Below are positions 4,807 to 29,474 of a stretch of 35,714 nucleotides of DNA, one piece after another. The DNA comes from a virus: the IMG/VR virus record IMGVR_UViG_3300017752_000064, positions 1 to 35,714 of that record; one strand, 5' to 3'. The notes beneath the pieces are model-generated. The model did no database searches. It saw only the letters and a program-made list of their open reading frames with translations, and was not told the DNA's origin. Position numbers and translations under genes: made by a program. Position 1 is the stretch's first letter. Every line of letters starts with the position of its first letter.

Positions 4807-5421
4807 TTATTCCCCAACCGTACCAGCAAGACTTTGGATTCTAACAGTGTAATCGATTTGAATTAATCTATTCAAACTTTTTTGGACAGGATGGAATACA
4901 ACATGTGTTAGTAAATTTCCTGTACCGCTTGCATTATAACCCTTTAGTCCTAGTTCATCAAATACATATAAACTGTTCTGATCAGTTGCTGTATCAAATG
5001 CATCCTGCCCGCTAGGTTCACCGTAATCTAACAAACAAGTTATGAGAACATCAGTATAATTCGTACCACTTACGTGACGTGTTTCAATTTTATTTCTTAC
5101 TGGATCAGTGTTGTTTACGCTGTTATCATCTACAATCTTAGTATAAGTTTGGTTGTATAAACTTGCATTTGTTCCTGTAGAATTAGGCGTCAAGTAAGTA
5201 ATAATACCAGTAGGATCCACACTTGTACCGCCATTACCAAAACTCATTTCGTAAATCCAGCCATTACCTCTATTTCCGACACTGTCGGCTAACGCTATAC
5301 TCATATTTTCGTAATGAATAGCATTATTTTTATCAATGTATACTTCTTTAGTCTCAGGATCAAATATCTTTATGTGACCCTTTATTAGTATACCATTTTT
5401 TTCTTTTAGATTATCATTCAT
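4807..5421 (-). CDS. Virion structural protein, unknown role (204 aa)
   Basis: ATG at 5421 with AGGAC upstream and a late-type promoter at 5440-5447, making this the first gene of a unit with the two fibre genes below it. The protein is short, beta-rich and acidic, with a GNGGTSVDPTG loop near residues 62-72 and a C-terminal LNRLIQIDYTVRIQSL stretch. I recognise no catalytic motif. Similar-sized proteins sit in the same place in marine T4-like phage tail clusters as uncharacterised virion proteins. It could be a connector or adaptor between baseplate and fibre; this is inference from position only. Confidence 0.7.
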   Translation of the reverse strand: MNDNLKEKNGILIKGHIKIFDPETKEVYIDKNNAIHYENMSIALADSVGNRGNGWIYEMSFGNGGTSVDPTGIITYLTPNSTGTNASLYNQTYTKIVDDNSVNNTDPVRNKIETRHVSGTNYTDVLITCLLDYGEPSGQDAFDTATDQNSLYVFDELGLKGYNASGTGNLLTHVVFHPVQKSLNRLIQIDYTVRIQSLAGTVGE

Positions 5422-5439: not shown

Positions 5440-5447
5440 TATTTATC
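5440..5447 (-). promoter_or_regulatory. T4-like late promoter (GATAAATA) overlapping the giant gene's stop
   Basis: Minus strand reads GATAAATA; the stop codon TGA of the giant gene overlaps its first bases. It lies 18 nt from the ATG at 5421, exactly the spacing seen at 833-840. It would start a transcript for the 204-residue protein and the fibre paralogues independently of the 15.7-kb gene upstream. Confidence 0.6.
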
Positions 5448-8400
5448 AGGGTAAGTCAACTGTTGTGGATCTCAAGAATCTACTAATATCGCTATCAGCA
5501 TTACTTAACGCTATTCCTGTATCATTCCAAAGTCTACCTTGTTTACGCACTATTATTACTTTCTGATTCTCTCCGGGTGTCTCAAGCAATACCAAATTAC
5601 TGCCTGTAATACTAAATTCTGCCGGTAATGTAATATCACCTTCAGGACTATCTTGACTTATTACCTCAGTTGATGTTGCATATGTTGTTCTTAAATTTGT
5701 ATCTAGCTGGTATGATTCTAGTGTTGTTTTTCTAAGTCTGCGGCCAGCTACAAAAACTTCAAACTCATTTACACTAGCAGGTGTAAAATCAAGTTCATAT
5801 GTACTACTAGTGCCATCAGCAGTAAATGTAGATGTAATTATTTCATCTTTATACGGCATCGAAGCAGTTCTACTCTGATCATAAAATTCTGTTCCTTCAG
5901 GATATGTAGATTTTACTCCAGTCCCTAATGTTCCTCTTCTAAGTTGTGTAAGAATATTTCCACTTTTTCTAAAATATTCTATACGTTCATTGTCTATAAA
6001 TAAGACCCCAGGGTATCTCGATCCTGGTACCGGGTCTGGTAAATTAGTACTATTTTCTACAACAATTACCTTATCATTGTAATTCAGAGGTTCGGCCAAT
6101 TTGTAATTTTGTGCTCCGTCTAGCCTTTTATAGATATCTCTATTTAAAATATCTTTAAACTGGCGCCACCCAAATTTATTTTTTAAACTTTCTTTAGCAA
6201 AATGAAATGTTTCTATAGTATCATTTTCGCTAAGAGTGTCTGTTAATTTAATACGCATTTTGTTTGGTGTTATAACATAATCAACAGAAGGATCTAATAA
6301 CTTACCATTTTTGACTACCCAAACGTACTGGTCATCAACTGCCGGGCTTTGTAAGTTAACATATCCTGCCCTAAGCTGTCTTAATTCGTACCAATCAGAT
6401 GTACCGTCGTCTGGTGTTATAGAAGCACCAAGTTCGACTATTTCAATTACATCATCTGTTACTGTTGCAACTCCTAGCACTTGTAAATCTAAAACTGTTT
6501 GTTCTGCACCAAATATTGTCTGTATTATTGCATTATTATTAACCTGTTGTGGTGTATTGTAATTAGGATCATCAATTCTAACATTATTCAAATATACAGC
6601 ATAATTTTTTCTTGTTGTTAGTGCCGGATTTAGATTTAAATTTGCAGTGCTGCCATCAAGGACAAAAACTTGTCTGCCTGCGTTTACACCTGGTGATAGT
6701 AATGTACGCTCAACAACATCTAAGTTCTGTCTTTCTATGCCTTGGCTATCGTGATTACTAAATTGGTACACTTTAATTTTATCATTGTCATTCAATGTTG
6801 AATAAATGTATAACTTACTAGTATCTTCTACAAAATTGTTATCGTTATCATAATATCCATATCTATAATCGCCTCCACTGGCTGTGCTATCTTCTAGTCC
6901 AACAACATAGACTCTTAAAATGTCTCCTGGAGAACCTACGTTTGCATTTAATAATATTGCACTACCCGATTGTTCATCAGCATCTAATGCAAGATTAAAC
7001 TGTCCTGAGCTTGTGAATGACCAATCCTGTATGTAAGTAAGTTCTTGGCCGTTAAGATAAATTCTTAATTGTCCTGCTCGTAGGCTTCCGGTAGGAACTT
7101 GCCATAATTTAAGTTGATATTCCTTACTATCAGTCATAGTATATTTTTGTGAATATCCAGCATTTAATATAGTATCATTTACTTGTACAATAGTAAACCA
7201 TTCATAGGGTTTTTGTGTGAAAGGAGTTTGCGTTAAATCAAACACAGGTTGAGTGCTTCCGTCTGCTGTAAATTCATCTATAGTAACTGCACTAAAGTTT
7301 TGTATTTCACCTTCAAATATTGCATACTTAACTACTGCGTCTGCAACTGGTGGTTCGGAGAATCTAATAACAATTCTATTTTCCGCAGCATATGTTGAGT
7401 TGCTTTTTGTAAGTACATGCTCTACACGCTTTCCGTCTATTGTAACTAAACTGCTTAAATTATTTGTATATGTAACGTTAGTTAGGAAATCAGCACTACT
7501 TCCATCAGACACAAACTCGTCTAAGTCTAGAATATTTGTTCCACTATAGTCAAGTGTCACAATGTTTATGTTTGAATTTGCAGGAGGTGCAGTTGTAAAT
7601 TTTACTTTGTCTGTTGTATTATCTATAGTGTATGCTGTTTGTATGACGTTGTTAATTTTTACAAATACATTCTTATCTAAAATAGGATCTGTTCCTATTC
7701 CAAATTCTGTAGTAACACCGTCTCCTATATAATTACGACTGTGTATTTGGCTTGACCCACTAGTTGGTCTTTCATAAACCTTTATATCTACTGTGTCAAA
7801 AACTCTACCAGGTAGTTGTTCATCAGGGCCTCCACTATTAGCAACAGTCGCAAACCCGTCTCCGTCAATGTTAATTTCTTCTGCTAGAATACCTTGTGCA
7901 GAAGTATAATCTAATTGTCCACCTTCGATTAGTGTATCATAGCTGCCTGGTACTGGAAGGAAGCTACCGTCACTCGTTGACTTTCGTATAACAATCTTAT
8001 CATCAGCTGCTGTCGGAATACCTAATTCATCTAATTCAATTATTGTTTGTACGCCATCGCCTGTTATAGAACGCATTATTGCGTTTGGATTTGCAAATGT
8101 TGAACTGTCATTTACCCAATCCGGATCATCTAATCTAACTCCATTTTTATATAAATTATAAACAACTCCGCTTTCTAAAGGACTAGTAAGTGTAATGCTA
8201 ATTGTACTACCATCTAACTCAAAAACTTCATCTTCGTAAGTAAGGTCATAAGTATCATATTCACTTGTAAACCAAGGTCCAGTATCCCAACCGGTTGGTC
8301 CGCCAAAGTCAAAGCTCTTAACTTGAACGCCACCATAGTCAACACCATCCATAAGTTGTGATAAATCTTTTGCAAACTGTCCTGTTGCAGGATCATATGC

Positions 8401-11400
8401 AATGTTTATTCTATCTTGTGCAGTTAATAAGTTTACTGCTTTTTTATATGCAATTACAATATTTGTATTCACAGGTACAGGCTCAGATAAAATAATTTGT
8501 CCGTGATATCTAGTATAACTTTTTGCTGTATTTGCTAAATTTTTATATGTATATTCACTTCTTAAAAGTTCTATGTTGTTTACAGTTACAGTAACATTTG
8601 TATTTTTTAGATCCATAGGCCATTTTAATTCATATACGTATTTGGATCCTGTGCCAGTAAATGTTTCTGTTTCGTTGATTGTAGTAATAGAATAATCTCC
8701 GCTTACTCTATCAAATTTTACTACATTTTTTATTCCACGTGTTAATCCGTCTCCTAATATAGTACTAAGTTTTGCATTTTTGCCTGTTTCTGATATGCCA
8801 CCTGTAAGTGTTAACGTAGGTGCTGTTATGTATCCGCTTCCCTTATTTGTAACTTCTACACTCGATACTCGTCCATTTGCTCCTAGTTTTGCTATTGCTT
8901 TAGCACCTGACCCGCCGCCACCGGTAAGTTTTATAACAGGTGCCTGAGTATACCCAGATCCGCCATCAGCAATTTGTATATCTACAACTTTAAATCCTAC
9001 ATTATCTGTCCAGTTCTTAAAAGGATATGTTGCTAAATCGTCATCTATACCTATTAACGTATCACCTACTACTTTAACATTTTGTGGTTCTATATTTTTT
9101 GTAATTGAATTAAAGCCGGGTTGTAAGTCAAAATCAGTAATTCTACTTTGGCTATTTTCTATCTTTTCATAAGCACTTAAATATTCACGTAATTTAGTTT
9201 TAAATGGTTTTACTTCCTCAAGATATCTTTGATAGCTAGGAAGACTGTCATTGTTAAATGTTAAGTCCTCGCGTAGTTGTCCAACATTATGTTTTGCTTT
9301 TACAAAGCTAGTCTTAAATGCCCAATCGACATTATTTTGCTCACTAAACACATAGCGTAAACTTGCAAAGAATAATTTATTATATTCGATAGCTAATTCT
9401 TCTGTATAAAGACTTTGTTTTATAAAGTTTAAAACTGCTCTACTTTCAATGCTAGGAACACTATCAAAGAATTGTGAATCAAAACTTATAATATCAAAAC
9501 CGGTTGCACTTAATCTTGTATCATAAAGAGTAGGTTTAAATGAAATAGTACCGTTTTGTCTACCTATAGTTTCATAGTTTACTGTGTAATCAACGTTAGA
9601 TTGGTTTGCTATTTTTCTTAATATAAGCCAACCACCTGTGCCTACATTGTTAATTTTTACAATATCTCCGATATTATCATCTATACTTTGTAATTGATAA
9701 GCTCCGTCAATAACATTTTTTACTTCTGTAAACTGATTATATCCTGTTGCATACCAATCTATATAATCCCAAAACAAACTAACATCATATGACTGACTTG
9801 CTATTCGTTGCCAAGTCCTAGCTACACTATCTCTTTCGTATAATGCCCATTTTCCTAAAATGGTTTCATCGTTGCTTACAAGAGCAGTATATTTTCTAAT
9901 TGTTATAGTATCAGTATCTAAATAATTTTTTCCGCCATTTATTATTTCTACATTAGTAATAACACCTAAATTGTTTATAGTAAATTTTAAGTCTGCACCC
10001 GACCCTGTGCCTGATATTTTGTATGTCGGTGCAACAAGATATCCGCGTCCAGGATTAACTACATCTACTCTAGTAATAACACCATCAGTAACAACCAAAG
10101 ACATTGTTGCTTGTGTTGCTTTTGCAACTCCTATAAATTCTAAATCCGCTACAGTATCAACTGTTGTATCAAACGTTCTGCCAACTGCACTAGGCTTAGG
10201 ATCTGCCGCTTTTATTAAAGTAAGATCTTTGTTGTCTATAATTAAGTTTTCTTTTAATACACTGTTTACTCTTTCAATAACCTGTTTGAGTGCTTCTGCA
10301 CTGTTTACAAACCAACTTTGTCTAGGCGAATTAAGTATTCCGTATTTTTGTTTTGGAGATAAATCGGGTGCAGGAACTTGTTTGCTTTGTTCGTCGTATC
10401 CTACTAAACTATCAAACCATTTTCTTTCAATATCTCTGTTAGGAACACTAGATGCTAATCCATCTGTAACGATTTGATATTGATTATGTATATTGATATT
10501 TTGATTATCTATTGTCCAATATTGTAAACTAAATGCAATGTCTTTATTTTCTAGTAGACTTTCACAATTATATATTGTAAAGCTGTCTGGTGAAATTAAA
10601 GCTGCAAATTTGTATCCTTGACCTTTAGGATCTCTAATTAAATTTGCAACATCAAAAGAAGATATTGTTCTAAATTCTACGTCAGGTGTTGTACGTTTAT
10701 TTTTTACCCAGAAATAATATTTTGTTGTTGTACTACCACTTATGCTATCATAGGTCTGTCTTGTAGAATAAACTGTATCATCATACAAACTTACACCGTC
10801 TATTCCTTGTTCTTGAGCTTCTTCAGTATCACTTAGACTATTCCAGGCGCTAGGTAGCACTGTAGATTCTACCCATTCATATACATCTATTGTGTTGCTT
10901 TCAAACAAACTATTCCAGTTGTTTGCCGAGAAAATTACATCTGATTGGTAGGCGTTTAAATATTTTGCATTAGTTAAATTCCACCACAATTCTCCGACTT
11001 GTTCTTTACCCCAACTAGCACTTGGCATTACTGTAACATTACTTCCCCCTACAGAATAATAGGCAGGATCATAATAAGTTTTATATGTCAAGTTTTGTTC
11101 TGCAGGACCTGCCACTTTTCCTTGTACAGGATCTAAATAATCTAGATATGTTACTAATTTATTTGTTTTTGTGTTATATAAAATTGCACGTTTGATCTTA
11201 CTAATATCAACAGTATCTTTTGGTTGTCTTAAATACTCCCATATATTTTTATTATCAGGAATTCTAAAATCAACTACTGCTCCAGTATAAACTGAATTTA
11301 CACTTGTTTTAGGTAAGCCAACATAAACATGATTATTTTTAAGTTTAAAATTATTTCCAAAATCGCTTAAACTGCTGTCATCTGTTTGATATTGTAATTG

Positions 11401-14400
11401 TTGGGCATATAACAAACCGTCATTTATTATTTCATAAACGTATACCGAACCTTGCTGTTCATAATATTTTTTATATGTTGTAAATTCGTTATCAAAAGTT
11501 GTAGACACCAGGTTCTTCTGACTAGTTTTATCTAGTATATAACTATCATCAATAGGAGTAGAAAATGTATCAAATGTTGTGTCAGTCCAATTGTCACCAT
11601 TTTTTGCATTTACAATTAACCTTGATCCATCAAAGTCTATTTTATTACCAAAAAATTGAGAAGTTGTATTGCTAGGACTCATTAATGTTTGTAAATAAGT
11701 AAATTCTCCATCTACCTGTTTATATATATAAACTTTTCCTTGATTATTTTTATTACTATCATCTGATGGTGTTGCTATTGCAATTAATTTGCCGTCTGTG
11801 CTTATTGCAATATCGTCGCCGAAACTTTCTGTCCCACTAGGAGCAGCAATTTGTTGTGAACGTCTATATTGTCCGTTAAGTATTCTGTATACAACTACTA
11901 AGTTTGGTTTATCATTACCGTACTTGGCATTGACAATTAGTACTTCGCCATCAGGTGTCAAATCAAAGCTATTTGCATAATCATACATAGATCCTTGATC
12001 TAATACTGTGCTAATATCATCACTACTGTCTGAAATTATTGTTACACCAGTATCGTTTGGAACATAACCTACATAGTCAATTAGGTCATCTGTACTATCC
12101 CATTGTAAATTATTAAATGTTCCTGCTATAATATTTGTAGTAGCATTGTACAAGGTATTTCCAATAGAAACAATATCACCAACAAAATAATTTGTTGATT
12201 CGCTGAATACTCCTTTGTAATTTTTATTTTTTGAATATTCCCAGTTATAGAAAATATTATTTTCAGTTCCATATTTTACGAAATATATTCTTCCTGGATC
12301 ATTTACTGTGTTCGATGCTGGCGCACTTATAAAACCTCTGTATACATCATTAGAATTTTTGCTAATTTCTACTCGAGAACCTAAATAATTATTATCTTGT
12401 CTTTCAGATCCTACATAACTGCCTAAACTGACATAGTTACCGGCATTATTCTGTTGGTATATATAATATATTCCTTCATTTGTAAATGGAGTTCCTACAC
12501 TTCCTCCTGACGCTGTTGGAATTTTATATACCTCTGTCCAATCAAGATTATCGCTGGCAGGTGTATTTGCTGTTCTTGGTATTCCGTTTATTACTGTTTG
12601 TTTATAAATCCAATATTCAAAGTTGTTATCAGGACTTAAAAATGCAAAGTCTCCAGTCAGTGCATTATTTGTTACAGTTGCACCCAATTGCGAAACTGTT
12701 CTAAAATCTCCATTTGGAGGTGTTATATTTGCGCCTGTGTCTACAACAAATAGTTTACCTATACCTGCTGTAGCGTTTCCTAAACTAACACGTTGTATTT
12801 GTCCCATAATACGCGGAATAGTATAAATTCCTACTCTACCATAATTATCTGGATTTGGGCCAGGGGCATAAGGTAAAAATTCTATTTCTGCATTATTTCC
12901 AAACTGATTACCTTTACTCCAATTACCAACAACATCTTTTACAAAAATTGTTACATCGTTAAGACTTCTTTGATAAAAAGCAACCTCAGCAGTTGCATTA
13001 GTAGAAACATCACGCACTCTTTGACCTATAATAGGTTCAAAAGGTAAACCATCTAAACCTTTAGTGTTTTCATAACTGATATATCCGTCCCATATATCAT
13101 CAATTGTATGCTCTTGGTTTGTTACAGCAAAACTCAATCCTATAGTGCTTGGATCTTTTAGCGCATCAATTACCGGAAGTACATTAATTTTTACACCTAA
13201 TGCACCCGAAGCACTAAACGTAAGTAAATTTACAGCATCAAAAGATCCTGTAATAGTATCTATAGTAATTACTGTACCATTCGTTACACTTTCTTTTATA
13301 ACTGCTGTTGCACCTGTAACCTGCTGTGTTATTATTTCACCTGCACCTACTGTAATTGCATTATCTAATGTAATTGTAGTAACAATATCATTCAAGTTAT
13401 TAAGGTATAAATTAAAATCATCGCCTACTTGTGCAGTATCTGATAACTCTTTAGGTGCTCTTATAACAAATTTAGTACTAATTATTGGATCTGAAGTTCC
13501 TAACGGGCCTGGGGTTCCTGTAAAACTTAATGTCTGTATATAACTATTAATTACACTTTCACTGTCTTGTACGTTTGTACTGTAATCTAAACTTTGGTAA
13601 TAATATCCGTCTAAAGTGCTATCAGTTGCTAAGTCATTCACTGATACAAAATCTGTGTATACCAAGCCGTTGCCAGTGTCAAAATTTGTATCAGTTATTG
13701 CATAAGGATTACTAGATTGTACAAACCAATATCCGCCCCAAGAATCTGCTGTGGTTATTTCTTCACTCGGTCCTATTCTTTCGTATTCACCTACAAAATC
13801 GTTACCGTCAATAAACAGACTGTTTCCTAAAGGAAATTCTCCGTTTATATCATTTACATAAATCGTCAACTGAGCAGATTCGTTGTGTGTATAGACTACT
13901 GTTCCAGTTGCTCCTTGTGTAGTAACTGTGTCGCCTATATTAGGAATGTTATTAGATGCGTCAACATATAATATGGCATCTATTTTCTTACTAATAGTAT
14001 GCTCTGACTCTAAATATTCTTTTGAAAGATATGGCACTGAACCATCAAATGGTGATCTCTCTACTAAATTAATTTGTGCTTGGTTTGCATTTGCCAAACT
14101 ATTCCATCTTAGATATATTTGATCACCTACTCCTGATCCATCATACATACTTTTTGGTGCCCTAAGTAAAAAGTGATCAGTTGTAATATTTTTAAACGGA
14201 TAATCACCTGTAAGTATTATAGGTATATCTTCTGCATCTTGCGAATAATTGTTTAAAGTGTAGTTGATCTGTGCAACACTATCAAAACTATTAAAGGTAA
14301 TGTTATCTACTGCACCAAGAATTGCGTTATCTGCCTGCCATAGGCTATCATTTAAACTTACTATGTCGCCAGCAGCATAATCAGTGTTTGTAGCAAATCC

Positions 14401-17400
14401 GTTTTTAAAATTAGTTTTTACACTAGAAGCATTTGGTGCACCTACAATAATGTATTTTGCATCATCGCTCATTGCTACACTATATCCAAATTTTTGTCCT
14501 GCGCTTGCAATATTTTCGTCAGGCTCTAAAACCTGATACAAATTGTAATTCAAGGCATTACTTGCTCTATTGTAAATGTATACCTTTCCATCGTCGAAGT
14601 CAGGTGAGCCTACAGCAATTTTAACATTTCTACTATCAACTGCTATTGCACTACCAAACTTATGTCCGTCTCCAAGTTCAGTATTAGATAATTCTTGCTG
14701 TACTGTAAATTTATTTGTATTTTGTAAAACAGCCCATTTTCCGTTTCCGGCATCGTCAATCCAAAGTTTTTCATCTTGACTTATTTCTTGTTCTGCTAAA
14801 GTATTTGCTTCTAATAAATTAGATGTTCTAACACTTATAAATTTACTTAATTTACCTTCACACTCTTCTACATCTTCAACACTGTCCGAAGACTCTAGTA
14901 CAATTTTATTAAGAGAAACTGATTTAACTTTAAAAAATCCTTCAATAGGAGCAAGTGTTTGTGTCAATGTTTGAGTGCTATCAAATGCCCCCGGAGCATA
15001 TGTTTTAATTAATACATTGTATATTCCTAGCACATCTCCTGTATTAATATCTAAAGGAGTAGCATTTACTACTAATGTAAATTCATTAGTACCAGATTCT
15101 ACTTTTTCTATTACGTAGTCAGTCTGCACATGCTGGAACACTGACCAATCTTGTTTGTAGTTTCCTACCCATATATAATCTTGATTATCAATATCACTAA
15201 AGGATTTGTTTACAATTTCGTCATATTTTGAAATTACAACATTAACATCTTGTGGATTTACATAGCCTGCATCCTTTGTATAACCCTTATTAATATATTT
15301 TGCAGGGAATGGTGAATGATCATAATTATTTGTTTTTAAATAAGTTTCATAACCTTGAATTCTATAAACTAAATCTGTTTCTAAACCTGTAACGTTATTT
15401 GTAAGCAAAATTGGTTGCGGATCGCTTACAAATTTCTTTTCGTCTAATAGGTATTCAACTTCATCAAAACTTTCGGAAGCACCATACTGACCATCTTTGA
15501 TTGCCCATTCTTCAAAGAAGTCTAAACTTTCTTGGTCTGCACTTGCTAGTGCATCAAATAATTTAGTTAAGGAATTTTTGGATCCTTTATCTAAAATAAA
15601 TCCTTGATAAAATTTGTATTGACTGACGTCGTCATTGATAATGTTTTCTAAATATTGACGCTTTTGGTATCCAATTAAGTGTTGTGCTAATTTTTGCTGT
15701 TCAACATCAAAATTGTCGCTGTCTAAATCATAAAAATCACTAAATTGATTAATTTTGTAATCAAAGTTTGTTAATAACCCCGGTGTTGGTTTGTTATTAA
15801 GTCTGTTCCAACTGTTTGCTTCAAACAGTTGTGTTCCTGCGATTTTTTTGTCCGAACTATAATAAAATTCTTTGTGTTTTACTAAGTCGCCTATTGTATA
15901 ATCTTTCCAGGCTTCCCATTCTGTTGCAACTGCATTGTCGTAAATGAATCCTGGTATGTTAAGACTTCCGTTCCAATTGTCTGTTCTATAACCTAATACT
16001 TTAATTCTTTCCTGCCTATATCCTGCAGCAGGGTCATATATTACATCATTAAATACAGTCTTGTTATCTATAATTAAAACATGTTCTTTTTGTACTAAAG
16101 GAAATCTTGCTGCAAATATACCGTCTGCCGAATTTACAACAGTGACAGTACATTGGTTTTCAACACCTTTTGAAATACGTATAAATTCACTATTTAATTT
16201 TTTACCATCACCTTTAAGTAAACTATAACCATAAAACGTATCATATATATTATCAACGATGCTGTAACTAGACTGTAGAGTTAATCTATTTGCACCTGGA
16301 CTTATTGTAATTAATGTACCTGCAGCCCAATTTTGTGTGGTCCAGAACATGAATTGTTTTGTGCTAGTAGCCCAATCTGATACTTCGTTTGAATTAGGAA
16401 TCCTATCTTCAAATACAAATCCTAACTCATTAAGATACTTTCCGTAGCCATATAAGAAATCAACAACATCTTGTAACGTGTATAGCTTATCACCATAATT
16501 TAAAGTACTTGCAGTAATTTCAAATATACGTGGCATAGTAGCCACCGCACCGCCAACTAGCGGTAATTCAGGTATACCAGCAAATTTACTAATGTCAAAA
16601 TTATTTTCGCTAGTATGAGCCTCAGTTACCCTAAAGAAACTATTATTTTGTTTTACAATTTGTCCAACTGTATATGAACTACCACTTGAATAATTTACAA
16701 ATGATTCTGATATTCCTCCTACGTTAATTACAGGATCATTTTGTTGTACAATCCTTCTATAATACGTAAAGCTAGGCTGAAAATTATCATAGCCTCTGAT
16801 TATATATCCATCTGCTTGTTTTTCAATTATTACACCACTATAACTAATTGTTTTTATAGGACTACTAGTATTCAAGATTAGATTATAATTTTCGTCTGGT
16901 ACAAAAACGTTACCTTCATTAGTTGGCGATCTAGAATCTAATATTAATCTAAACTTTTTCTTATCTGAATAGCCTGCAATTTTACTACCCATTTGGTTTT
17001 TAATATTAACTAATCTTGTTTTGTAGTCTGTGTAAGATTGGACTGTGTTGCTTGTCATATAGTTTGCAATATAATTAACAAGTCCACTTGTAAACACCTG
17101 TGTTGTATCAGATATAGTATTTGGGAATACAACGTTTTCTAATTTAATAGGTATAGCAGAATCACCGTAAACAATCTGATTTGCTAAATTTCTTTTTTGC
17201 CTAGCTCTGTCAAAACCAGTAGCAAATATATTATTTGGCTGATTTTGTACCCAAGCAGTAATTAAACTAAAAGGATATTCTGAACTTCGTCTCCAAGCTG
17301 ATTCTACGGGGCCACCATCACCAAACACCCAATTATTTGTAATTACGCTTGAATCAAGGTTTGTTAACAATCCACAAGCATTTGGGTCAAGTAGATTACC

Positions 17401-20400
17401 GCCAGCATCAACTGGTATATGTCCTGTAAGACCCGGTCGCTTATAATTGTTTAAAACTTTAAATTTTTTGTTTGGTTCTCTTACAACTCCGTCTTCTAAA
17501 TCTTGCCATAGTAGTTTGTTATTTCTAGTATAAGGTGCAGGACCATACTGTGTTTCCCACCAAGTTGGTTTGACACTAAAACCTAGCATTTCCCAAGGAT
17601 CTGTGTGCGGTCTATCAGTATCAAATGCATACATATATGCTTGACGCCAATGACCGGGTAGTTTTTCTGAGCCTGTTACATATCTAGTATTTGAATAGTT
17701 AAATGTGAATGCATTATTTCTATCGAAAGAACTATTAGTTACGTAATCTCCATCTACTAATTCATTCCATTGTATAAAATCAGCTGTCATAGAATAATTT
17801 AATTCTTGTCTTGTAAATGTAGTATCTCTATGCTGTCCAGGAACAAAACTATGAATATCTAATATAGAAGTATCATAATTTATTTTTATGTTATTATAAA
17901 TTCGTAATTCTAATTCTAATAATAAATTGTCTCTAAAATCATCGTATCCTACAAACTTGCTACCGTCGTGTCCTTGAATAACAGTGACTGGGTTTATAGC
18001 TGTATTATCAGTATATATTTTTGGTTCAAATGATGGATAAAGTCCTAACTTACTAGGAGTAGGTGGCATAAAACTAGCATTAGTGCTATCATATTCATAC
18101 GTATCTATTACATCGTCTACTGCTTTAGTAGCAGTAACGTCTACAAATCCTTCAGTGTTAAAAATGTAATCCTTACCATGTGTCAACTGACTTCCATTTA
18201 AATATACCTGTACAGCCTTCCGGCTTAACGTAGACATTGAAAATGCACTACTTAACGGAAAATATCTTTCATCTGTGTCTAAAACTGTGTGACTGGTTTT
18301 TACTGCGCCACCTTGCGGAACCATATCACTAAAATAAAACGGCATATTAGATGTTTTATCTTTATTCATTTGATTTAAAATATTATCTACATGCTGTTTT
18401 ACTGGGCCTTCATATCCTAGGGTATCAGCTGTTTGTAAAAACTGTCTTTTAAACTTTCCGTATTCTTTTCTAGAATATCGCAGTGCTTGAATAATATTAG
18501 CATCTTTGTCAACTAAATGGTAAGTTGATAAATTTATAGGTCCGCTGTGTTTTAAAAACTTTTTGCCGTATGTGCTTAATGATCCTATGTCTCGTAAATT
18601 ACTTGGTCCAGGAAATATACCATCAAAGTTATTAATTTCTTCTACTATTGTAGAAACATGATCATTTACTTCACCTAGAGTAAACTCTGTGACGTTTTCG
18701 TTTAACGGATTTCTTTCAATATTTTTTGCTATTTCATAATAACCGTTATTGTTTTTTGGATACTTACTTTTTGTTTTAATTACAATAACATCATCTAATG
18801 ATAAAGAATTTGTAAATGTAATATACAGTAATCCGTTTACATCTGTAGCAGTAGTATAATCTTTGTTAATAAATTGTAGTTTATTGTTGAGATATACTCT
18901 GAGCCAAAGATTGTTTACATAATCAGTATTATCATAAACATCAATATAAAAATTATCAGTTGTATTATCATAAATGTATTGTTGTATTACTGGCTGATTG
19001 CTTAGTTTATTTGTTTTTAACCAACCATTGACGTAACTAAATTTATCAATTGTTGTATATGATCTTAAAAAACCTGTATCTGTTTTTTTATTAAATAATT
19101 CCGTACCTATTTGATATGTGAATGATTGATCTGTTAAATCAAAGTTAAAAGTTATATCTCCGGTATTTGTTATGTTTCTATAAGATATAGGAAATCCTAA
19201 TTCTGCATCATTTACGCCTGTACCTTGTTTATAAGAAAATATTTTATTTCCTGCAAACGTTGTAGAATTATAATTTGTTGTATCACCAAATGCATTTCCG
19301 TTATTATCAAATAAATCGAATAAAGGTTGTTGGTTGACCGCAGACTTTTGCTGACTTAGTTTCCAATTTTTACCATCATAGGTAAAAAACTTTCCGCCGT
19401 TAGTAGATCCAAACTTTACAAACACATTTTCATTAGCAACTGGGGTTGTGTCAGTTTCTTCTACCAAAGATATTTGTGTATTATTTTTAAACTTTATAAA
19501 ACTAATCTTGTAAATTTTTCCGTTAACTAGGTTATCTGTGTCTGCACTAAACAACACACGCATACCATTTGTTAGATTTATGCCGTCGACATTATAACCT
19601 GCACTTCCTTCTATAGTTGAAAATGCATCTTTAGTAAAAGTATCGATTAAATCTACATCTATTTTTGATTTTGTACCAAAGTTAAATAATTTTATACCTT
19701 TGTTAAATTCTATAATAGGTCGCTTTGCTCTAGAATTTTCTAACAGTGTAGATGGATTATCACTAAAATTATTACTTGCTTCTATTACAGATTTATGAAA
19801 CCACCTGTTATACCTACTCCAAAGATTTCCATCTTTGCTTGCACGGTTGATTACAATATAATCTTTTTTGCTTGGATAGCCTAATGCATCACTAAACGGA
19901 AAAAAATCAAATCCCTGAGCATCAAATTGTACTTCGATATTATCTGTAAATGTTCCGCTTACTGTCAAGTCATCTTGTTGAATTAATTGTATACGATCGC
20001 CCACACCTTCAACATACCATTGGCCTGAAGTATATTTCTCTGGAGTAACTTCACCGGCAAATTCTACTTTCATACCATTAGATAAATCATATCCGCTACT
20101 TGTAGTATAAGTTTTTTTGCCTAGTATTTCTGCTTCAACATCAATTGCTGTGTTTTCTTCTATATCAAAAATTTGCATATATCCAGAGGTATTAGGATCA
20201 TTTTTTGAAATATAATATAATGAGTCTGGAGCAGTATCAGGAATAGTAAATTCGATTATACCCTTTTCAATGTATACAGTAGAAACAGTATTGCCGTCAT
20301 CATCTACTTTTGATACTCCAGTATCATAAATTAACGAGGAATTAGAAGCTGTACCGATTCTAAAACTTGCTTGTGCTTCAGCTTGTGTAATAGGATCTAC

Positions 20401-21189
20401 AATAAATCCGCCAGCATCGTATGCTGTGCCTTCTTGGTCATACAATACAACATCGAAAACACCTGCACTTCTTACACCATCTGTAGATTCAACAATGACT
20501 GCTTCACCGGGTGTAAAACTTTTCTTAGTTGCAAATGCCATAGGATGATTTGGAGTGTCAATTTCGAACCTATATTTTTGTCCTCTATATAACTTTATTG
20601 TTGGATTATTTGTCAATCCATCTGGTGAAAATACGTAGGTAACATTATCTACGTTCTCTCCTAGTCCAACAGTATATGTGCTAACAATTTCTTTTGTTTG
20701 ACCTACAACTGTTAACAAACTAGGTCCATTAGGTAACCAATAATATTCTCTGTAATTTGTTAATTTGTCCCAGTCGACATGGGGATTCCAAGCATACTCT
20801 TCTTGAGCGTTTAATCTACTGTGGTTAACAGTAGATCCGCCTAAATTACCTACAGTATTAATATAGTCGTTATAATCTTTGTAATACGTAACATTACCTA
20901 AATCATCTTTAATTACTGCTGCAGGTTCAAATTGATAATTTTCTCTGTCATTTGTTACGCCGCCGATGTAGTTGTCAGTAGGTATAAATGCCTTGCTTAC
21001 TTTGCGTCCAAGGTAACCATTTAGTTTTTCAGCAACGCCGGGTTGTATAAGTTGATCTAATGTACTTGATAAAAATTTTGTATTATACGGTGTTCTAAAA
21101 TACCTAGGTAAATGGTCTTGGCTTTTTCTACGTATACTGTCGTTGCCAGCTGGAAGCGGTGATTCATTTTGATTATTATCGTATGCCAT
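5446..21189 (-). CDS. Giant multidomain virion structural protein (5247 aa)
   Basis: A single uninterrupted 15.7-kb frame starting at an ATG that shares one base with the gp6 stop (TAATG) and has GGAGG 6 nt upstream. The N-terminal 150 residues (YNTKFLSSTLDQLIQPGVAE, NHSRLNAQEEYAWNP, YYWLPNGP) match my memory of large structural proteins in marine T4-like phages. Further on come four carbohydrate-binding-like modules of the Y..GD/Q.V...N..Y type (about 1497-1540, 1753-1796, 2260-2300, 2990-3032). FG-GAP-like propeller repeats occur between about 2170 and 3313. Two Gly-rich GSGY modules lie near 3697-3763 and 4063-4130. A C-terminal series of DGS/GDGVT-type beta repeats runs from about 4200 to 5210. 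It sits where T4 has gp7-gp11, so it may form peripheral baseplate or long fibre parts. No protease or hydrolase motif was recognised. Confidence 0.85.
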   Translation of the reverse strand: MAYDNNQNESPLPAGNDSIRRKSQDHLPRYFRTPYNTKFLSSTLDQLIQPGVAEKLNGYLGRKVSKAFIPTDNYIGGVTNDRENYQFEPAAVIKDDLGNVTYYKDYNDYINTVGNLGGSTVNHSRLNAQEEYAWNPHVDWDKLTNYREYYWLPNGPSLLTVVGQTKEIVSTYTVGLGENVDNVTYVFSPDGLTNNPTIKLYRGQKYRFEIDTPNHPMAFATKKSFTPGEAVIVESTDGVRSAGVFDVVLYDQEGTAYDAGGFIVDPITQAEAQASFRIGTASNSSLIYDTGVSKVDDDGNTVSTVYIEKGIIEFTIPDTAPDSLYYISKNDPNTSGYMQIFDIEENTAIDVEAEILGKKTYTTSSGYDLSNGMKVEFAGEVTPEKYTSGQWYVEGVGDRIQLIQQDDLTVSGTFTDNIEVQFDAQGFDFFPFSDALGYPSKKDYIVINRASKDGNLWSRYNRWFHKSVIEASNNFSDNPSTLLENSRAKRPIIEFNKGIKLFNFGTKSKIDVDLIDTFTKDAFSTIEGSAGYNVDGINLTNGMRVLFSADTDNLVNGKIYKISFIKFKNNTQISLVEETDTTPVANENVFVKFGSTNGGKFFTYDGKNWKLSQQKSAVNQQPLFDLFDNNGNAFGDTTNYNSTTFAGNKIFSYKQGTGVNDAELGFPISYRNITNTGDITFNFDLTDQSFTYQIGTELFNKKTDTGFLRSYTTIDKFSYVNGWLKTNKLSNQPVIQQYIYDNTTDNFYIDVYDNTDYVNNLWLRVYLNNKLQFINKDYTTATDVNGLLYITFTNSLSLDDVIVIKTKSKYPKNNNGYYEIAKNIERNPLNENVTEFTLGEVNDHVSTIVEEINNFDGIFPGPSNLRDIGSLSTYGKKFLKHSGPINLSTYHLVDKDANIIQALRYSRKEYGKFKRQFLQTADTLGYEGPVKQHVDNILNQMNKDKTSNMPFYFSDMVPQGGAVKTSHTVLDTDERYFPLSSAFSMSTLSRKAVQVYLNGSQLTHGKDYIFNTEGFVDVTATKAVDDVIDTYEYDSTNASFMPPTPSKLGLYPSFEPKIYTDNTAINPVTVIQGHDGSKFVGYDDFRDNLLLELELRIYNNIKINYDTSILDIHSFVPGQHRDTTFTRQELNYSMTADFIQWNELVDGDYVTNSSFDRNNAFTFNYSNTRYVTGSEKLPGHWRQAYMYAFDTDRPHTDPWEMLGFSVKPTWWETQYGPAPYTRNNKLLWQDLEDGVVREPNKKFKVLNNYKRPGLTGHIPVDAGGNLLDPNACGLLTNLDSSVITNNWVFGDGGPVESAWRRSSEYPFSLITAWVQNQPNNIFATGFDRARQKRNLANQIVYGDSAIPIKLENVVFPNTISDTTQVFTSGLVNYIANYMTSNTVQSYTDYKTRLVNIKNQMGSKIAGYSDKKKFRLILDSRSPTNEGNVFVPDENYNLILNTSSPIKTISYSGVIIEKQADGYIIRGYDNFQPSFTYYRRIVQQNDPVINVGGISESFVNYSSGSSYTVGQIVKQNNSFFRVTEAHTSENNFDISKFAGIPELPLVGGAVATMPRIFEITASTLNYGDKLYTLQDVVDFLYGYGKYLNELGFVFEDRIPNSNEVSDWATSTKQFMFWTTQNWAAGTLITISPGANRLTLQSSYSIVDNIYDTFYGYSLLKGDGKKLNSEFIRISKGVENQCTVTVVNSADGIFAARFPLVQKEHVLIIDNKTVFNDVIYDPAAGYRQERIKVLGYRTDNWNGSLNIPGFIYDNAVATEWEAWKDYTIGDLVKHKEFYYSSDKKIAGTQLFEANSWNRLNNKPTPGLLTNFDYKINQFSDFYDLDSDNFDVEQQKLAQHLIGYQKRQYLENIINDDVSQYKFYQGFILDKGSKNSLTKLFDALASADQESLDFFEEWAIKDGQYGASESFDEVEYLLDEKKFVSDPQPILLTNNVTGLETDLVYRIQGYETYLKTNNYDHSPFPAKYINKGYTKDAGYVNPQDVNVVISKYDEIVNKSFSDIDNQDYIWVGNYKQDWSVFQHVQTDYVIEKVESGTNEFTLVVNATPLDINTGDVLGIYNVLIKTYAPGAFDSTQTLTQTLAPIEGFFKVKSVSLNKIVLESSDSVEDVEECEGKLSKFISVRTSNLLEANTLAEQEISQDEKLWIDDAGNGKWAVLQNTNKFTVQQELSNTELGDGHKFGSAIAVDSRNVKIAVGSPDFDDGKVYIYNRASNALNYNLYQVLEPDENIASAGQKFGYSVAMSDDAKYIIVGAPNASSVKTNFKNGFATNTDYAAGDIVSLNDSLWQADNAILGAVDNITFNSFDSVAQINYTLNNYSQDAEDIPIILTGDYPFKNITTDHFLLRAPKSMYDGSGVGDQIYLRWNSLANANQAQINLVERSPFDGSVPYLSKEYLESEHTISKKIDAILYVDASNNIPNIGDTVTTQGATGTVVYTHNESAQLTIYVNDINGEFPLGNSLFIDGNDFVGEYERIGPSEEITTADSWGGYWFVQSSNPYAITDTNFDTGNGLVYTDFVSVNDLATDSTLDGYYYQSLDYSTNVQDSESVINSYIQTLSFTGTPGPLGTSDPIISTKFVIRAPKELSDTAQVGDDFNLYLNNLNDIVTTITLDNAITVGAGEIITQQVTGATAVIKESVTNGTVITIDTITGSFDAVNLLTFSASGALGVKINVLPVIDALKDPSTIGLSFAVTNQEHTIDDIWDGYISYENTKGLDGLPFEPIIGQRVRDVSTNATAEVAFYQRSLNDVTIFVKDVVGNWSKGNQFGNNAEIEFLPYAPGPNPDNYGRVGIYTIPRIMGQIQRVSLGNATAGIGKLFVVDTGANITPPNGDFRTVSQLGATVTNNALTGDFAFLSPDNNFEYWIYKQTVINGIPRTANTPASDNLDWTEVYKIPTASGGSVGTPFTNEGIYYIYQQNNAGNYVSLGSYVGSERQDNNYLGSRVEISKNSNDVYRGFISAPASNTVNDPGRIYFVKYGTENNIFYNWEYSKNKNYKGVFSESTNYFVGDIVSIGNTLYNATTNIIAGTFNNLQWDSTDDLIDYVGYVPNDTGVTIISDSSDDISTVLDQGSMYDYANSFDLTPDGEVLIVNAKYGNDKPNLVVVYRILNGQYRRSQQIAAPSGTESFGDDIAISTDGKLIAIATPSDDSNKNNQGKVYIYKQVDGEFTYLQTLMSPSNTTSQFFGNKIDFDGSRLIVNAKNGDNWTDTTFDTFSTPIDDSYILDKTSQKNLVSTTFDNEFTTYKKYYEQQGSVYVYEIINDGLLYAQQLQYQTDDSSLSDFGNNFKLKNNHVYVGLPKTSVNSVYTGAVVDFRIPDNKNIWEYLRQPKDTVDISKIKRAILYNTKTNKLVTYLDYLDPVQGKVAGPAEQNLTYKTYYDPAYYSVGGSNVTVMPSASWGKEQVGELWWNLTNAKYLNAYQSDVIFSANNWNSLFESNTIDVYEWVESTVLPSAWNSLSDTEEAQEQGIDGVSLYDDTVYSTRQTYDSISGSTTTKYYFWVKNKRTTPDVEFRTISSFDVANLIRDPKGQGYKFAALISPDSFTIYNCESLLENKDIAFSLQYWTIDNQNINIHNQYQIVTDGLASSVPNRDIERKWFDSLVGYDEQSKQVPAPDLSPKQKYGILNSPRQSWFVNSAEALKQVIERVNSVLKENLIIDNKDLTLIKAADPKPSAVGRTFDTTVDTVADLEFIGVAKATQATMSLVVTDGVITRVDVVNPGRGYLVAPTYKISGTGSGADLKFTINNLGVITNVEIINGGKNYLDTDTITIRKYTALVSNDETILGKWALYERDSVARTWQRIASQSYDVSLFWDYIDWYATGYNQFTEVKNVIDGAYQLQSIDDNIGDIVKINNVGTGGWLILRKIANQSNVDYTVNYETIGRQNGTISFKPTLYDTRLSATGFDIISFDSQFFDSVPSIESRAVLNFIKQSLYTEELAIEYNKLFFASLRYVFSEQNNVDWAFKTSFVKAKHNVGQLREDLTFNNDSLPSYQRYLEEVKPFKTKLREYLSAYEKIENSQSRITDFDLQPGFNSITKNIEPQNVKVVGDTLIGIDDDLATYPFKNWTDNVGFKVVDIQIADGGSGYTQAPVIKLTGGGGSGAKAIAKLGANGRVSSVEVTNKGSGYITAPTLTLTGGISETGKNAKLSTILGDGLTRGIKNVVKFDRVSGDYSITTINETETFTGTGSKYVYELKWPMDLKNTNVTVTVNNIELLRSEYTYKNLANTAKSYTRYHGQIILSEPVPVNTNIVIAYKKAVNLLTAQDRINIAYDPATGQFAKDLSQLMDGVDYGGVQVKSFDFGGPTGWDTGPWFTSEYDTYDLTYEDEVFELDGSTISITLTSPLESGVVYNLYKNGVRLDDPDWVNDSSTFANPNAIMRSITGDGVQTIIELDELGIPTAADDKIVIRKSTSDGSFLPVPGSYDTLIEGGQLDYTSAQGILAEEINIDGDGFATVANSGGPDEQLPGRVFDTVDIKVYERPTSGSSQIHSRNYIGDGVTTEFGIGTDPILDKNVFVKINNVIQTAYTIDNTTDKVKFTTAPPANSNINIVTLDYSGTNILDLDEFVSDGSSADFLTNVTYTNNLSSLVTIDGKRVEHVLTKSNSTYAAENRIVIRFSEPPVADAVVKYAIFEGEIQNFSAVTIDEFTADGSTQPVFDLTQTPFTQKPYEWFTIVQVNDTILNAGYSQKYTMTDSKEYQLKLWQVPTGSLRAGQLRIYLNGQELTYIQDWSFTSSGQFNLALDADEQSGSAILLNANVGSPGDILRVYVVGLEDSTASGGDYRYGYYDNDNNFVEDTSKLYIYSTLNDNDKIKVYQFSNHDSQGIERQNLDVVERTLLSPGVNAGRQVFVLDGSTANLNLNPALTTRKNYAVYLNNVRIDDPNYNTPQQVNNNAIIQTIFGAEQTVLDLQVLGVATVTDDVIEIVELGASITPDDGTSDWYELRQLRAGYVNLQSPAVDDQYVWVVKNGKLLDPSVDYVITPNKMRIKLTDTLSENDTIETFHFAKESLKNKFGWRQFKDILNRDIYKRLDGAQNYKLAEPLNYNDKVIVVENSTNLPDPVPGSRYPGVLFIDNERIEYFRKSGNILTQLRRGTLGTGVKSTYPEGTEFYDQSRTASMPYKDEIITSTFTADGTSSTYELDFTPASVNEFEVFVAGRRLRKTTLESYQLDTNLRTTYATSTEVISQDSPEGDITLPAEFSITGSNLVLLETPGENQKVIIVRKQGRLWNDTGIALSNADSDISRFLRSTTVDLP

Positions 21190-24100
21190 TAGTAGCCTCC
21201 TCCGCCACTGCCTGAACTACTTGAACTACTTGAACTACTTGAACTACTTGAACTACTTGAACTACTTGAACTGCTTGTGCTTGTTGATGTATCTGTGCTA
21301 TTTGTTGCTATATAGTTAGAACTTTGAATACCAGTATTTGTATTTCCGCCGTTTGTTTCTATTGTGCCTGTCGCGCTAATTTTTGTTGCTGTCACAGCAT
21401 CAATAATTTCTAAATTATCTACTGTTGCTGCACTAATAAACACTTCGTCAACTTCAGATTTAATTTCGTATAATGCGCCAAAAGATTGTGACACCTGTGC
21501 AGGCACAATTAAAAATGTAACTATATCAGGCGACAATTCATTCATTACATAAGTTGATAATTCTGAGAAGTAAAATGTTTCTCCGAACTCCCAGTTCTCT
21601 AGTGCAAAGAATTGATTAATTGCACTAATTACTCTACTTTTTATATCATTATCGTTTAAAACTAGATCAGGATTTTTTACAATTTTAAAAGATGCTTGTA
21701 AATCTAAACTAGCTTTATTACCAAATAGTATTTTATATTTTACCGGATGATATATAACTTCGTCACTCAATGATTTGATTTTATTAATTTCAGTTCCGTA
21801 AGATTGGAATAGGCTATCGCTTGAAGGTGACAGCGGCTTAGATGTAATAGTTCCATCAATATATTGTCTAAATTTAGTATCATATGATCTTGTTAACAAA
21901 TATGTATCTATTATATTACTTGAACTAGGATCTATACGTGTGTTATCATCAGCTGCATGTATATACTGGAATTTTATTTTATCTCTTCCAATATAAGCTC
22001 TATAATTTGTTACAAGTTCTAAACGTCCTAGAGTTGAATTATATCTGTTAAACACTTCGCTATCTATAAAATAAAATACTTGATTATCAGTATAAGCACT
22101 TAATGCTCCTACTTCATCGACATTCTGTTTGGTAATAATTTTTTCTATATTGTTATCAACATAATTATAATCATCAACACCGTCAGTAGTTTGTATTTTT
22201 TTCTGGAATATATATTTGGTTGTAGGATTAGTGTCTTCGTCTACTATTACATCAAATATTTCTGGATCGTCAACTACTCCATCATCGTCATCATCAAAAA
22301 ATGTTACTTCAACTTTTTTACTATTCACATAGCCTTCTGCATCTCTATATTCTTGTGTTATTTCCCAATCCATGTCTACTGTAAAACTGTTTACGCTATC
22401 AGGTTTATTATTGTTATTTAAAACTGTAATCTTATCCTTAACAATTTTACCGGTAAGACTATTGTAAATTTTGTCGCTACTATCAAAGTAAAATCTTATT
22501 TCTTGGTCGCTTTCAAAAACATATCTACTTCCTTTTGATTCAATAGTATATGTCTCGCCATCATTTGTAAATTTAAGCAACCAACTAGCATCTAATTGTT
22601 GATTAGTATTGTCGCCGGTTTTACCAGTGTTAAATGCTCCATTTGCATTAAGATTATTTTCTGTTATTACACGCCATTGTCCTAGATTAGTATCAAATCT
22701 TAGTCCAAAAGTTTTGTATGCAAATATTTGGTCAATAATTTGTACTTTAACATCTGCTTCTAAGTTCTGAGCAAGGAATGGTTTTATTTCAACTAGTTGA
22801 GCTGTGCTAGGTATGACATCATTGAATACTATAGGACCTGCGCCTGTATCTGAAACTAATGTCCCATTGCCGTCTACACTTACAACTTTAACCCATTTAT
22901 AAGTTCTTGAATTTAGATGATCAGCAGGACCATCCATTAAAGTTCCATCTGGCATGAAATGCTTGCCTGTTGGTGCAACAAATTTTAAACTTGTGCCAGG
23001 ACGTATTAATTTAAGTATACTTGTTGTAAATGTTCCTAATAATTGTTTTATACCATTTACGTTTTGTAAATAACCTGTGCTTATATTTGTATCAGAAGTT
23101 GATTGAACCCAAGTTATATTCAAATCGTTTGTATCAACTTTGGGGAATTTTACAAAATAATAATTTCTCATTGCTTTACTAGATAGTATAGGTTCTATAT
23201 TATTCAGTATTACACCAGACACATCCGTTTGAGTTAAAAATGTAAATTTATTTTTGTTTGTAATAATTTCTTTATAAATTATTCCATCAATACCAAATAA
23301 ATTAGTTTTACTATATTTTCCTGTTGCATCTAATAAGTCAAAATATCTACTTATTCCGCTTGCAATTCTGTTCACGGATTTGGTTTTTATTACTTCTTGA
23401 CTAATGCTTAATGGACCAATTTGATAGTCTTCGCCTGTGACTAATCTATTTTGTGTGTAATAAGTTGCAGGAGCACGTTGTCGTATATTAGCATTAGTTT
23501 CAGAAACTGTTGCATTGTCTACTGTACTTTGTAGGCTATATGTAATGCTAATTGTTTCTACTTTTCCTACCTTTGAGGCATAATTAATATCAATACTAAT
23601 GCCACGCATATCTTTAGGGTCAACTACAAGTCTTGCATTTTTACTTGTTCTATAGTAAACTCTGAAATTTCCTTGCGGTAAATTTCCAAAGACACCGTCT
23701 GAAAATATTAAACTTACTCTATCATCAATACGAGTTAAAACACTAAAAATATTTCTAATATTTTTAGACAGGCTGTTATAGATAACATTGTTACCTTCTG
23801 TCGCTTCAACCTTTGTCCATTGTTCTATTTCTTTTCCGAAACTATCTAATTTGTAAAGCCATAAATCAGTGTTATTAACATTTGTTGCATCTACTGCAAC
23901 TGTCTGATTAGTGCTTGGATTACTTACATTAAATGTTCCTTGGTCCAAAGTACCTTGTCTAAAATGACAGAAAAATCCTGTGTTACTACTTGCTGGTCCG
24001 CGACCGTCATCTCTATATAAGAATGCAAAGTTGTTTCCTGGGAATGGAGCTTCTTCTAAAATAGTGCCATCAGATATATCAGTAGAAACTACTTCAAATC

Positions 24101-24782: not shown

Positions 24783-25235
24783 TTATGTATTCAAAAAGCC
24801 GTTATTTTGGTCAAATGTTAATTTCATGTTTTCTGAAATATTATAAGGAAGATACGTAAGACTTACTTCTATTTGCAGTCCACTTTCGTACTGGTCAACT
24901 GTTATATTGTTTACTTTTACTCTTGGATCATAATTAACAATGTTTGACACATTTTCAATAATAGCATTTTTCATATCGCCAGTAAAAGGTTCAAAAAGTG
25001 CGTCCCATATAATAGTTCCAAATTCTGGATCACTTAATTTTTCGCCTTGTCTTATATGAAAATGATTTAGAATATCCTGTTTTATCAATGAAAGATCGTA
25101 TAACACCTTAGATGAATTACCCTCATTAACTGTACTAATACCTCTATAAGTACGCGATCCTGGGGCAGATGTGCTTTTACTCTTTTTTCCTGGCACACTA
25201 ATTTGTTTATAAAGTTGTTTTTCTAAATTGCTCAT
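24783..25235 (-). CDS. gp25: Baseplate wedge subunit gp25 (150 aa)
   Basis: Clear GPW/gp25 family protein: RQGEKLSDPEFGTIIWDALFE (about residues 70-90), then a helix and DPRVKVNNITVD, then beta strands ending LTFDQNNGF. In T4 and related contractile systems gp25 sits in the inner wedge core and is linked to sheath nucleation. Length is close to T4 gp25 (132). The N-terminal 45 residues are basic and low-complexity (KKSKSTSAPGSR), probably an extension. The ATG at 25235 has no Shine-Dalgarno at ideal distance; an AAGGAAGG inside the last codons of the gp5 gene lies about 15 nt upstream, so coupling with gp5 translation is likely. Confidence 0.93.
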   Translation of the reverse strand: MSNLEKQLYKQISVPGKKSKSTSAPGSRTYRGISTVNEGNSSKVLYDLSLIKQDILNHFHIRQGEKLSDPEFGTIIWDALFEPFTGDMKNAIIENVSNIVNYDPRVKVNNITVDQYESGLQIEVSLTYLPYNISENMKLTFDQNNGFLNT

Positions 25236-29171: not shown

Positions 29172-29474
29172 TTAGATTCCTAGCAATCTTTTTAAATTGC
29201 CTCCTTTGGGTAAGAATATTTCAGTGCCAGCTTCAAAATCGTAAATAGGATCTTTTATTGTATTGATATTTCTTTGTGCAAAGACCCACCATAATTTATG
29301 ATCGCCGTATAAATCATAGGCAAGCAAATCTGGCCTATGTGTGTATTGCACTTGTATCACATACGGAATGTCATCTGACTCTGCAGGAATCGGACGTATT
29401 TTTAGTATATCAAGATACTGTCCATTTTTAGTGTTAGTATCTTTCCACGGACTGTTTGCTGTATATTTTGCCAT
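29172..29474 (-). CDS. gp53: Baseplate wedge subunit gp53 (100 aa)
   Basis: The central part, RPDLLAYDLYGDHKLWWVFA, aligns with T4 gp53 (RPEELANAIYGNPQLYWVLL), the family's hallmark LysM-like element; the C terminus, DFEAGTEIFLPKGGNLKRLL, resembles a second LysM-like strand. gp53 clamps the gp6-gp7-gp25 inner wedge in T4. T4 gp53 is about twice as long, so this is a compact form. The ATG overlaps the gp48-like stop by one base (TAATG), implying translational coupling. Confidence 0.9.
   Translation of the reverse strand: MAKYTANSPWKDTNTKNGQYLDILKIRPIPAESDDIPYVIQVQYTHRPDLLAYDLYGDHKLWWVFAQRNINTIKDPIYDFEAGTEIFLPKGGNLKRLLGI

Follow-up and report, generated by a model that had tools for sequence, protein, structure and literature searches.

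A minimal gp7 equivalent at the baseplate wedge is gp17 of XM1, a 242-aa protein whose helices pack with two gp6-type chains (PMC10457771), and the gp7-like part of Alg12 in AlgoCIS has been described as a re-engineering hotspot with a role in tail-fibre binding (PMC8894135). Cyanophages carry giant proteins in the same slot: those of P-SSM2 (5195 aa) and S-SSM7 (3007 and 3001 aa) are annotated 'gp7, baseplate wedge initiator', that of S-RIM2 (6378 aa) is annotated 'similar to gp7', and ACG-2014b (6422 aa) and S-CAM1 (3032 aa) have further examples. Giants at the gp7 position rank with the largest proteins that phages encode and in most cases bear the label 'hypothetical' or 'head and packaging'; our literature search found no description of the structure of any giant gp7. 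In phAPEC6, a 'hypothetical protein' of 381.88 kDa, gp245, was detected in virions by 17 unique peptides (7.6% coverage) and adjoins the wedge protein gp244 (PMC7247149).

Here we describe a protein of 5247 aa at the same position in a 35.7-kb virus record (35,714 bases), the whole of which we call the window and which is a fragment with no larger genome behind it. A protein of about 5000 residues at the gp7 slot is already in public records, two of them longer than the one in the window, so the giant is not unique. New here are the predicted integrin-like propeller with an insert of ~570 aa and four CBM5/12-like modules.

A giant gene in a contractile-tail cluster

The window comes from a marine phage, and the giant gene is part of a contractile-tail cluster on the minus strand, with the following genes:

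30438-31262, orientation opposite to the tail cluster, which adjoins: late sigma factor
29474-30355, minus: virion structural protein, cluster member beside the sigma factor
29172-29474, minus: gp53-like wedge protein
26634-29171, minus: second virion structural protein of the cluster
25248-26624, minus: gp5-like hub or spike protein (phrog_13211; Phage_base_V weak)
24783-25235, minus: gp25-like wedge protein or sheath initiator (phrog_261, phrog_43)
21189-24731, minus: gp6-like baseplate wedge protein of 1180 aa whose tail is variable and rich in Ser and Gly (phrog_10646, 2e-301; phrog_219, T4 gp6, 3.5e-19)
5446-21189, minus: the giant, 5247 aa, assigned to the virion structural proteins (its N-terminal piece matches phrog_10938 at E 5e-163)
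4807-5421, minus: 204-aa protein downstream of the giant (phrog_11259)
2788-4803, minus: separate tail-collar/gp10-C-terminal-domain fibre protein (Collar 3.9e-18, Gp10_C 6e-4)

The order gp53-like, gp5, gp25, gp6, giant matches the order 53-5-6-7 of T4. PA5oct has a similar-sized, MS-annotated gene, gp357, in place of the 204-aa protein, and the 204-aa gene is followed by three fibre-like genes. The tail of the gp6-like protein (21192-21310, minus) is a low-complexity stretch rich in Ser and Gly, its coding sequence built from a 9-bp repeat, (aagtagttc)n; among relatives the tail varies in length and sequence and often has a GG..Y-type aromatic end right before the start of the giant.

Two genes on the plus strand were also observed in the window. 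One is hemC (34096-34839), encoding porphobilinogen deaminase/hydroxymethylbilane synthase (Pfam PF01379, 4e-64) whose C-terminal domain is shortened. Its matches among phage records are few and all lie in bacterial-looking or unannotated records, so hemC within a myovirus late region seems rare. The other (35063-35512) encodes a GIY-YIG endonuclease of the SegE type (Pfam, 6e-34), a family that PHROGs names 'NAD synthetase', which is probably a mislabel.

The first-pass annotation had reported a single 5247-residue frame filling 44% of the window and overlapping the preceding gp6 gene by one base, and both observations were borne out. The frame lies on the minus strand, starts with ATG, has zero internal stops and takes up 15,744 of the 35,714 bases; its product would have a mass of 586 kDa, a pI of 4.6 and four cysteines. 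The first base of the giant (21189) is shared with the stop codon of the gp6-like gene (TAATG), an overlap that recurs in 59 of the 80 relatives with a readable junction. A scan of viral contigs with the first 1400 aa returned 122 relatives, 80 of which were fetched and, together with four phage records, made up a set of 84 loci. In 83 of these the frame has a defined start and is unbroken; in the exception, L071, it is carried by two overlapping ORFs (9634-12900 and 12866-15922). Complete close relatives on independent contigs measure 5049, 5250 and 5583 aa when contig coordinates are joined for locus pairs on one contig, and more distant complete relatives range from 3333 to 4699 aa. Against five relatives, dN/dS was 0.04-0.12 in every 750-aa block. 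A chance open frame is ruled out by the single frames, the full-length relatives on other contigs and the low dN/dS.

Conservation peaks at aa 1801-1900 (72% identity). Relatives most often lack aa 2301-2900 and the C-terminal region past aa 4600, the figure for the latter being partly depressed by truncated loci. A separate scan found that the C-terminus of the giant also has relatives, with length changes.

Most of the giant is covered by the family phrog_10938, 'virion structural protein', in three pieces (E 5e-163, 1e-87 and 7e-79). Syntenic giants were found by tblastn in PA5oct (gp355, 3857 aa), Atu_ph07 (gp180, 4449 aa), Phosso (4555 aa) and PBECO4 (gp538, 3333 aa), all four of which also have the order gp6 then giant, and further matches came from SCTP-2, a Vibrio phage and other RaK2/PBECO4-like phages. 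The record of PA5oct gp355 carries an ESI-MS/MS annotation, and the size and position of phAPEC6 gp245 suggest that it belongs to the same family. Judging by these relatives, the giant itself is very probably a virion protein, as had been claimed at the outset.

Domain content and the predicted integrin-like propeller

The domain map of the giant consists of two conserved cores, a predicted propeller between them and several smaller modules:

15160-21189, minus: N-terminal core conserved among relatives, aa 1-2010, identity mostly 40-72%
16567-16707, minus: CBM5/12-like module 1, aa 1495-1541
15784-15942, minus: CBM5/12-like module 2, around aa 1750-1802
14836-15129, minus: small beta-barrel, aa 2021-2118, like ubiquitin E1 FCCH and phage endosialidase barrels
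11230-14715, minus: seven-bladed beta-propeller of the FG-GAP (integrin-alpha) type, predicted by Pfam and AF2, aa 2159-3320
14284-14418, minus: CBM5/12-like module 3, aa 2258-2302, following blade 2 of the propeller
12535-14232, minus: insert of ~570 aa that separates blades 2 and 3, about aa 2320-2885, partly duplicated within itself
12100-12228, minus: CBM5/12-like module 4, aa 2988-3030, between blades 3 and 4
9004-11232, minus: second conserved core, aa 3320-4062, common to PA5oct and PBECO4
9892-10122, minus: first copy of a Gly-rich GSGY-type module, aa 3690-3766; relatives in tailspike Dpo31 and cyanophage gp7
8797-8991, minus: Gly-rich GSGY-type module, copy 2, aa 4067-4131
5449-8592, minus: tandem modules of the variable C-terminus, aa 4200-5247, probably repeats with a beta-sandwich fold

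The N-terminal core is also recognisable in PA5oct, Atu_ph07, Phosso, PBECO4 and RAS14. Within it, aa 183-342 (about 20164-20643, minus) looked by eye like what we take to be a cupredoxin-type pattern without the usual metal ligands; this segment is partly missing in relatives. Pfam found CBM_5_12 (PF02839) in the giant at 8e-12 (45.4 bits against a cut-off of 26.2), and CBM-like motifs occur four times, at aa 1506, 1764, 2271 and 3001. The model of module 1 superposed on phage Milano 8fqc_P1 (Z 7.0, 1.5 A, 45 residues) and on the CBM of a chitin deacetylase (Z 6.8, 1.2 A). The small barrel at aa 2021-2118 reached Z 7-8.4, close to the level reached by unrelated models; P-SSM2 gp7 also has a weak Pfam E1_FCCH match. 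Internal duplications were sought by phmmer of windows of the giant, and the duplicated C-terminal pair is 4321-4403/4840-4919 (E 1e-13).

The propeller was recognised by Pfam FG-GAP_2 at 2e-7 and 4.5e-5 (31.5 and 24 bits, cut-off 23), and the AF2 model of aa 2150-3345 had a mean pLDDT of 83.7. Integrin alphaM (7usm_A: Z 29.5, 350 residues, 3.1 A) and other integrin alpha subunits were its best structural neighbours; WD40 propellers with seven blades reached Z about 28 and so tied with the integrin matches to within about 1-2 Z. Seven blade motifs were located, at aa 2176, 2232, 2934, 3069, 3121, 3178 and 3275. The insert between blades 2 and 3 is, the C-terminus aside, the part most often absent in relatives.

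In integrin alpha chains the I domain (alphaI) is placed between blades 2 and 3. The giant and integrin alpha are thus alike in propeller fold and in having a large blade 2-3 insert, at about 15% identity, and a Pfam search of the insert of the giant gave no I domain match. We take the common insert position as parallel rather than as a sign of shared descent. Because FG-GAP was not detected by Pfam in the six jumbo phage and cyanophage proteins searched (PA5oct, Atu_ph07, Phosso, PBECO4, P-SSM2 and S-SSM7), where weak divergent copies are possible, the propeller may be an addition of the lineage of the giant.

Traces of gp7

The sequence link from T4 gp7 to the cyanophage giants is good, and these are true gp7 relatives. 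Residues 729-758 of T4 gp7 match 192-221 of S-SSM7 with 50% identity and 92% probability, and a second motif (motif B; T4 859-893, IKS..W..VHP.GF) recurs in the five cyanophage giants examined. The baseplate wedge family PF23786 matches S-RIM2 in three colinear pieces (~aa 1-50, 676-729 and 3458-3499), all under the curated cut-off. Evidently a small gp7 core in the cyanophages is split by very large inserts. S-SSM7 has two adjacent proteins of ~3000 aa annotated gp7 (L152:3562-12585 and 13651-22656), the second of which looks mislabelled because only the first carries the gp7 motifs.

The same searches gave much less for the giant. Whole-profile hhalign of a 40-sequence giant alignment against the T4 gp7 family profile returned a probability below 1%, and Pfam and PHROG scans of the giant detected none of the gp7 families (phrog_964; Gp7_helical, Gp7_5th, Gp7_6th). 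PF23786 had no match in the giant at E 10, which is weak evidence because T4 gp7 itself is unmatched by PF23786. A scan for motif B along the giant stayed at background, and PDB sequence searches with aa 1-1000 and single sequences gave no useful match. Two segments stood out in profile scans:

15529-15669, minus: gp7-like motif KG[T/S]...LF..L, aa 1841-1887 (motif A profile; monomer pLDDT about 30)
18355-18480, minus: candidate helix, aa 904-945, likest to the N-terminal helix of cyanophage gp7, suggestive

Motif A corresponds to T4 gp7 729-758 (DFY..KG...S...LFK.LY), and its profile was slid over the giant in 146 windows. Only one peak emerged, at aa 1841-1887, with a score of 29.2 (P 2.4e-4) where the next unrelated window reached 17.0; a broader profile scored 26.9 there, against 19.2 for the next unrelated window and 16.3 for the reversed giant, with P up to 8e-4. 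The motif is short, and P is roughly 0.01-0.05 once the number of windows is allowed for. This motif is the strongest gp7 trace in the giant, whose sequence link to gp7 is weak. The N-terminal helix profile ranked aa 904-945 top of 146 windows, hardly over background (20.1 vs 18.7).

Structure prediction, which the first-pass annotation had proposed, was applied to two segments: that of aa 2150-3345 gave the propeller, and a fold search with the model of aa 1000-2170 recovered small modules only and no gp7-like chain, the motif region being unfolded in the monomer. The AF2 monomer leaves aa 1801-1908 unfolded (pLDDT about 30) although this is the best-conserved stretch, a combination of high conservation and no monomer fold that suggests an obligate partner interface. 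Since full gp7 homology was looked for and not found, we say that the giant works like gp7 and not that it is gp7.

A probable wedge scaffold and its alternatives

We consider it likely that the giant is the third wedge protein, a gp7-type scaffold inflated by inserted modules as in cyanophages. Several observations underlie this reading. The giant follows gp6, as gp7 does in T4 and as do the proteins annotated gp7 in cyanophages. Further, searches of four complete related genomes (PA5oct, Atu_ph07, Phosso and PBECO4) recovered no member of the gp7, P2 gpI (PF09684), gp8, gp9 or gp11 families, with T4 as positive control for gp7 and positive each time for gp8, gp9 and gp11. The motif A peak in a well-conserved stretch that AF2 leaves unfolded, the virion data for PA5oct and phAPEC6, and the published accounts of XM1 and AlgoCIS also speak for it. 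Against it stand the negative whole-profile comparison, the missing motif B and PF23786 match, the weak significance of motif A, the lack of a gp7-like hit in the fold search and the PHROGs category of the family.

As a gp7-type scaffold, the giant would do the job of T4 gp7 and of gpI/TssG-type partners, one giant chain packing with two gp6-like copies under gp25 to form a wedge. Six copies, one per wedge, would be seated on the gp6-like pairs via aa about 800-1910, and the propeller, CBM-like modules, GSGY modules and C-terminal repeats would project from the baseplate rim. There they could hold the fibre proteins of neighbouring genes or touch polymers of the host surface, and movement of the modules on docking could be passed through gp6 and gp25 to trigger sheath contraction. 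The partnership with (gp6)2, the copy number, the surface exposure, the binding and the signalling are what we infer from this arrangement; the wedge partnership is the supported and likely core of the proposal, and an adhesive role is suggested by domain type alone. It is conceivable, if doubtful, that the wedge scaffold is itself the receptor sensor, so that a single 586-kDa chain, present six times in the virion, would combine host recognition with the contraction trigger across a widespread group of marine phages.

Another reading is that the giant is a fibre or whisker-like adhesin on the baseplate and that an unrecognised small protein fills the job of gp7. An integrin-type propeller, CBM5/12-like modules, Gly-rich modules shared with tailspikes and a variable C-terminus would all fit an adhesin, as would the failure to find full gp7 homology. 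However, the N-terminal core of 2000 aa and aa 3320-4062 are kept across jumbo phages, unlike fast-changing adhesins, and in most relatives the gene sits behind gp6 and overlaps it by one base. The cluster also has its own fibre genes after the giant, and the four complete relatives yielded no further candidate for gp7 or gpI, making this reading unlikely.

It is improbable that the giant is a precursor cut into several virion proteins at assembly, a proposal compatible with the scaffold reading. Very large size, separable conserved cores and the low peptide coverage of the phAPEC6 relative (PMC7247149) could be explained in this way, but we found no cleavage evidence in the literature and full length is conserved among close relatives.

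The first-pass annotation had also suggested that this modular protein following gp6 might fuse or replace several T4 baseplate components; its modularity and its place in the gp7 slot are confirmed, and no similarity to gp8-gp11 supports the rest. A fusion replacing gp7 together with gp8-gp11 could account for the missing gp8, gp9 and gp11 families in the four relatives, although these may be lost or diverged and absence does not show fusion. Against it, hhalign of the 40-sequence alignment with T4 gp53, gp6 and gp8-gp12 gave nothing (probabilities for gp8-gp11 <1%), so that profile similarity to gp8, gp9, gp10 or gp11 appears nowhere in the giant, and the gp10-C/collar domain sits in a gene of its own (2788-4803). 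Likewise, the main match of the gp10 family in PA5oct is the collar-type C-terminus of a separate gene, with a second short match elsewhere. Giant size needs no fusion because P-SSM2 and S-CAM1 keep a separate gp8 beside their giant gp7, and we regard a fusion as very improbable. The PHROGs category of phrog_10938 ('head and packaging') would make the giant a head protein or an internal one that is ejected. This is scarcely credible, since PHROGs gives the same category to a number of generic 'virion structural protein' families, every relative examined has the gene within its baseplate cluster and the domains are of surface types.

These data tie a jumbo-phage family to the gp7 slot and pick out one segment that may touch gp6. 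The integrin-like propeller and the CBM modules raise the question of whether the baseplate scaffold of these phages is also an adhesin, which cultured relatives (PA5oct, phAPEC6 and PBECO4-like coliphages) can answer.

Compared with T4 gp7 (1032 aa), the giant is alike in its position after gp6 and in its presumed wedge role, whereas it is five times larger and has no detected overall sequence relation. The jumbo phage phrog_10938 proteins occupy the same place after gp6, and their N-terminal and aa 3320-4062 cores can be aligned with those of the giant at 23-38% identity. They are shorter, however, with no FG-GAP and at most weak CBM5/12 matches in Pfam, and PBECO4 and PA5oct have only about 210-320 aa between the two cores, where the giant has its propeller region. 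The cyanophage giant gp7 proteins resemble the giant in slot, size class, the KG[T/S]...LF..L motif and the GSGY and E1_FCCH-like modules, but they carry motif B and some also a weak PF23786 match, both of which the giant of the window lacks, and the gp7 proteins of P-SSM2 and S-SSM7 have YHYH domains and no FG-GAP match. With XM1 gp17 and the gp7-like part of AlgoCIS Alg12, the giant shares the position after gp6 and the presumed wedge role.
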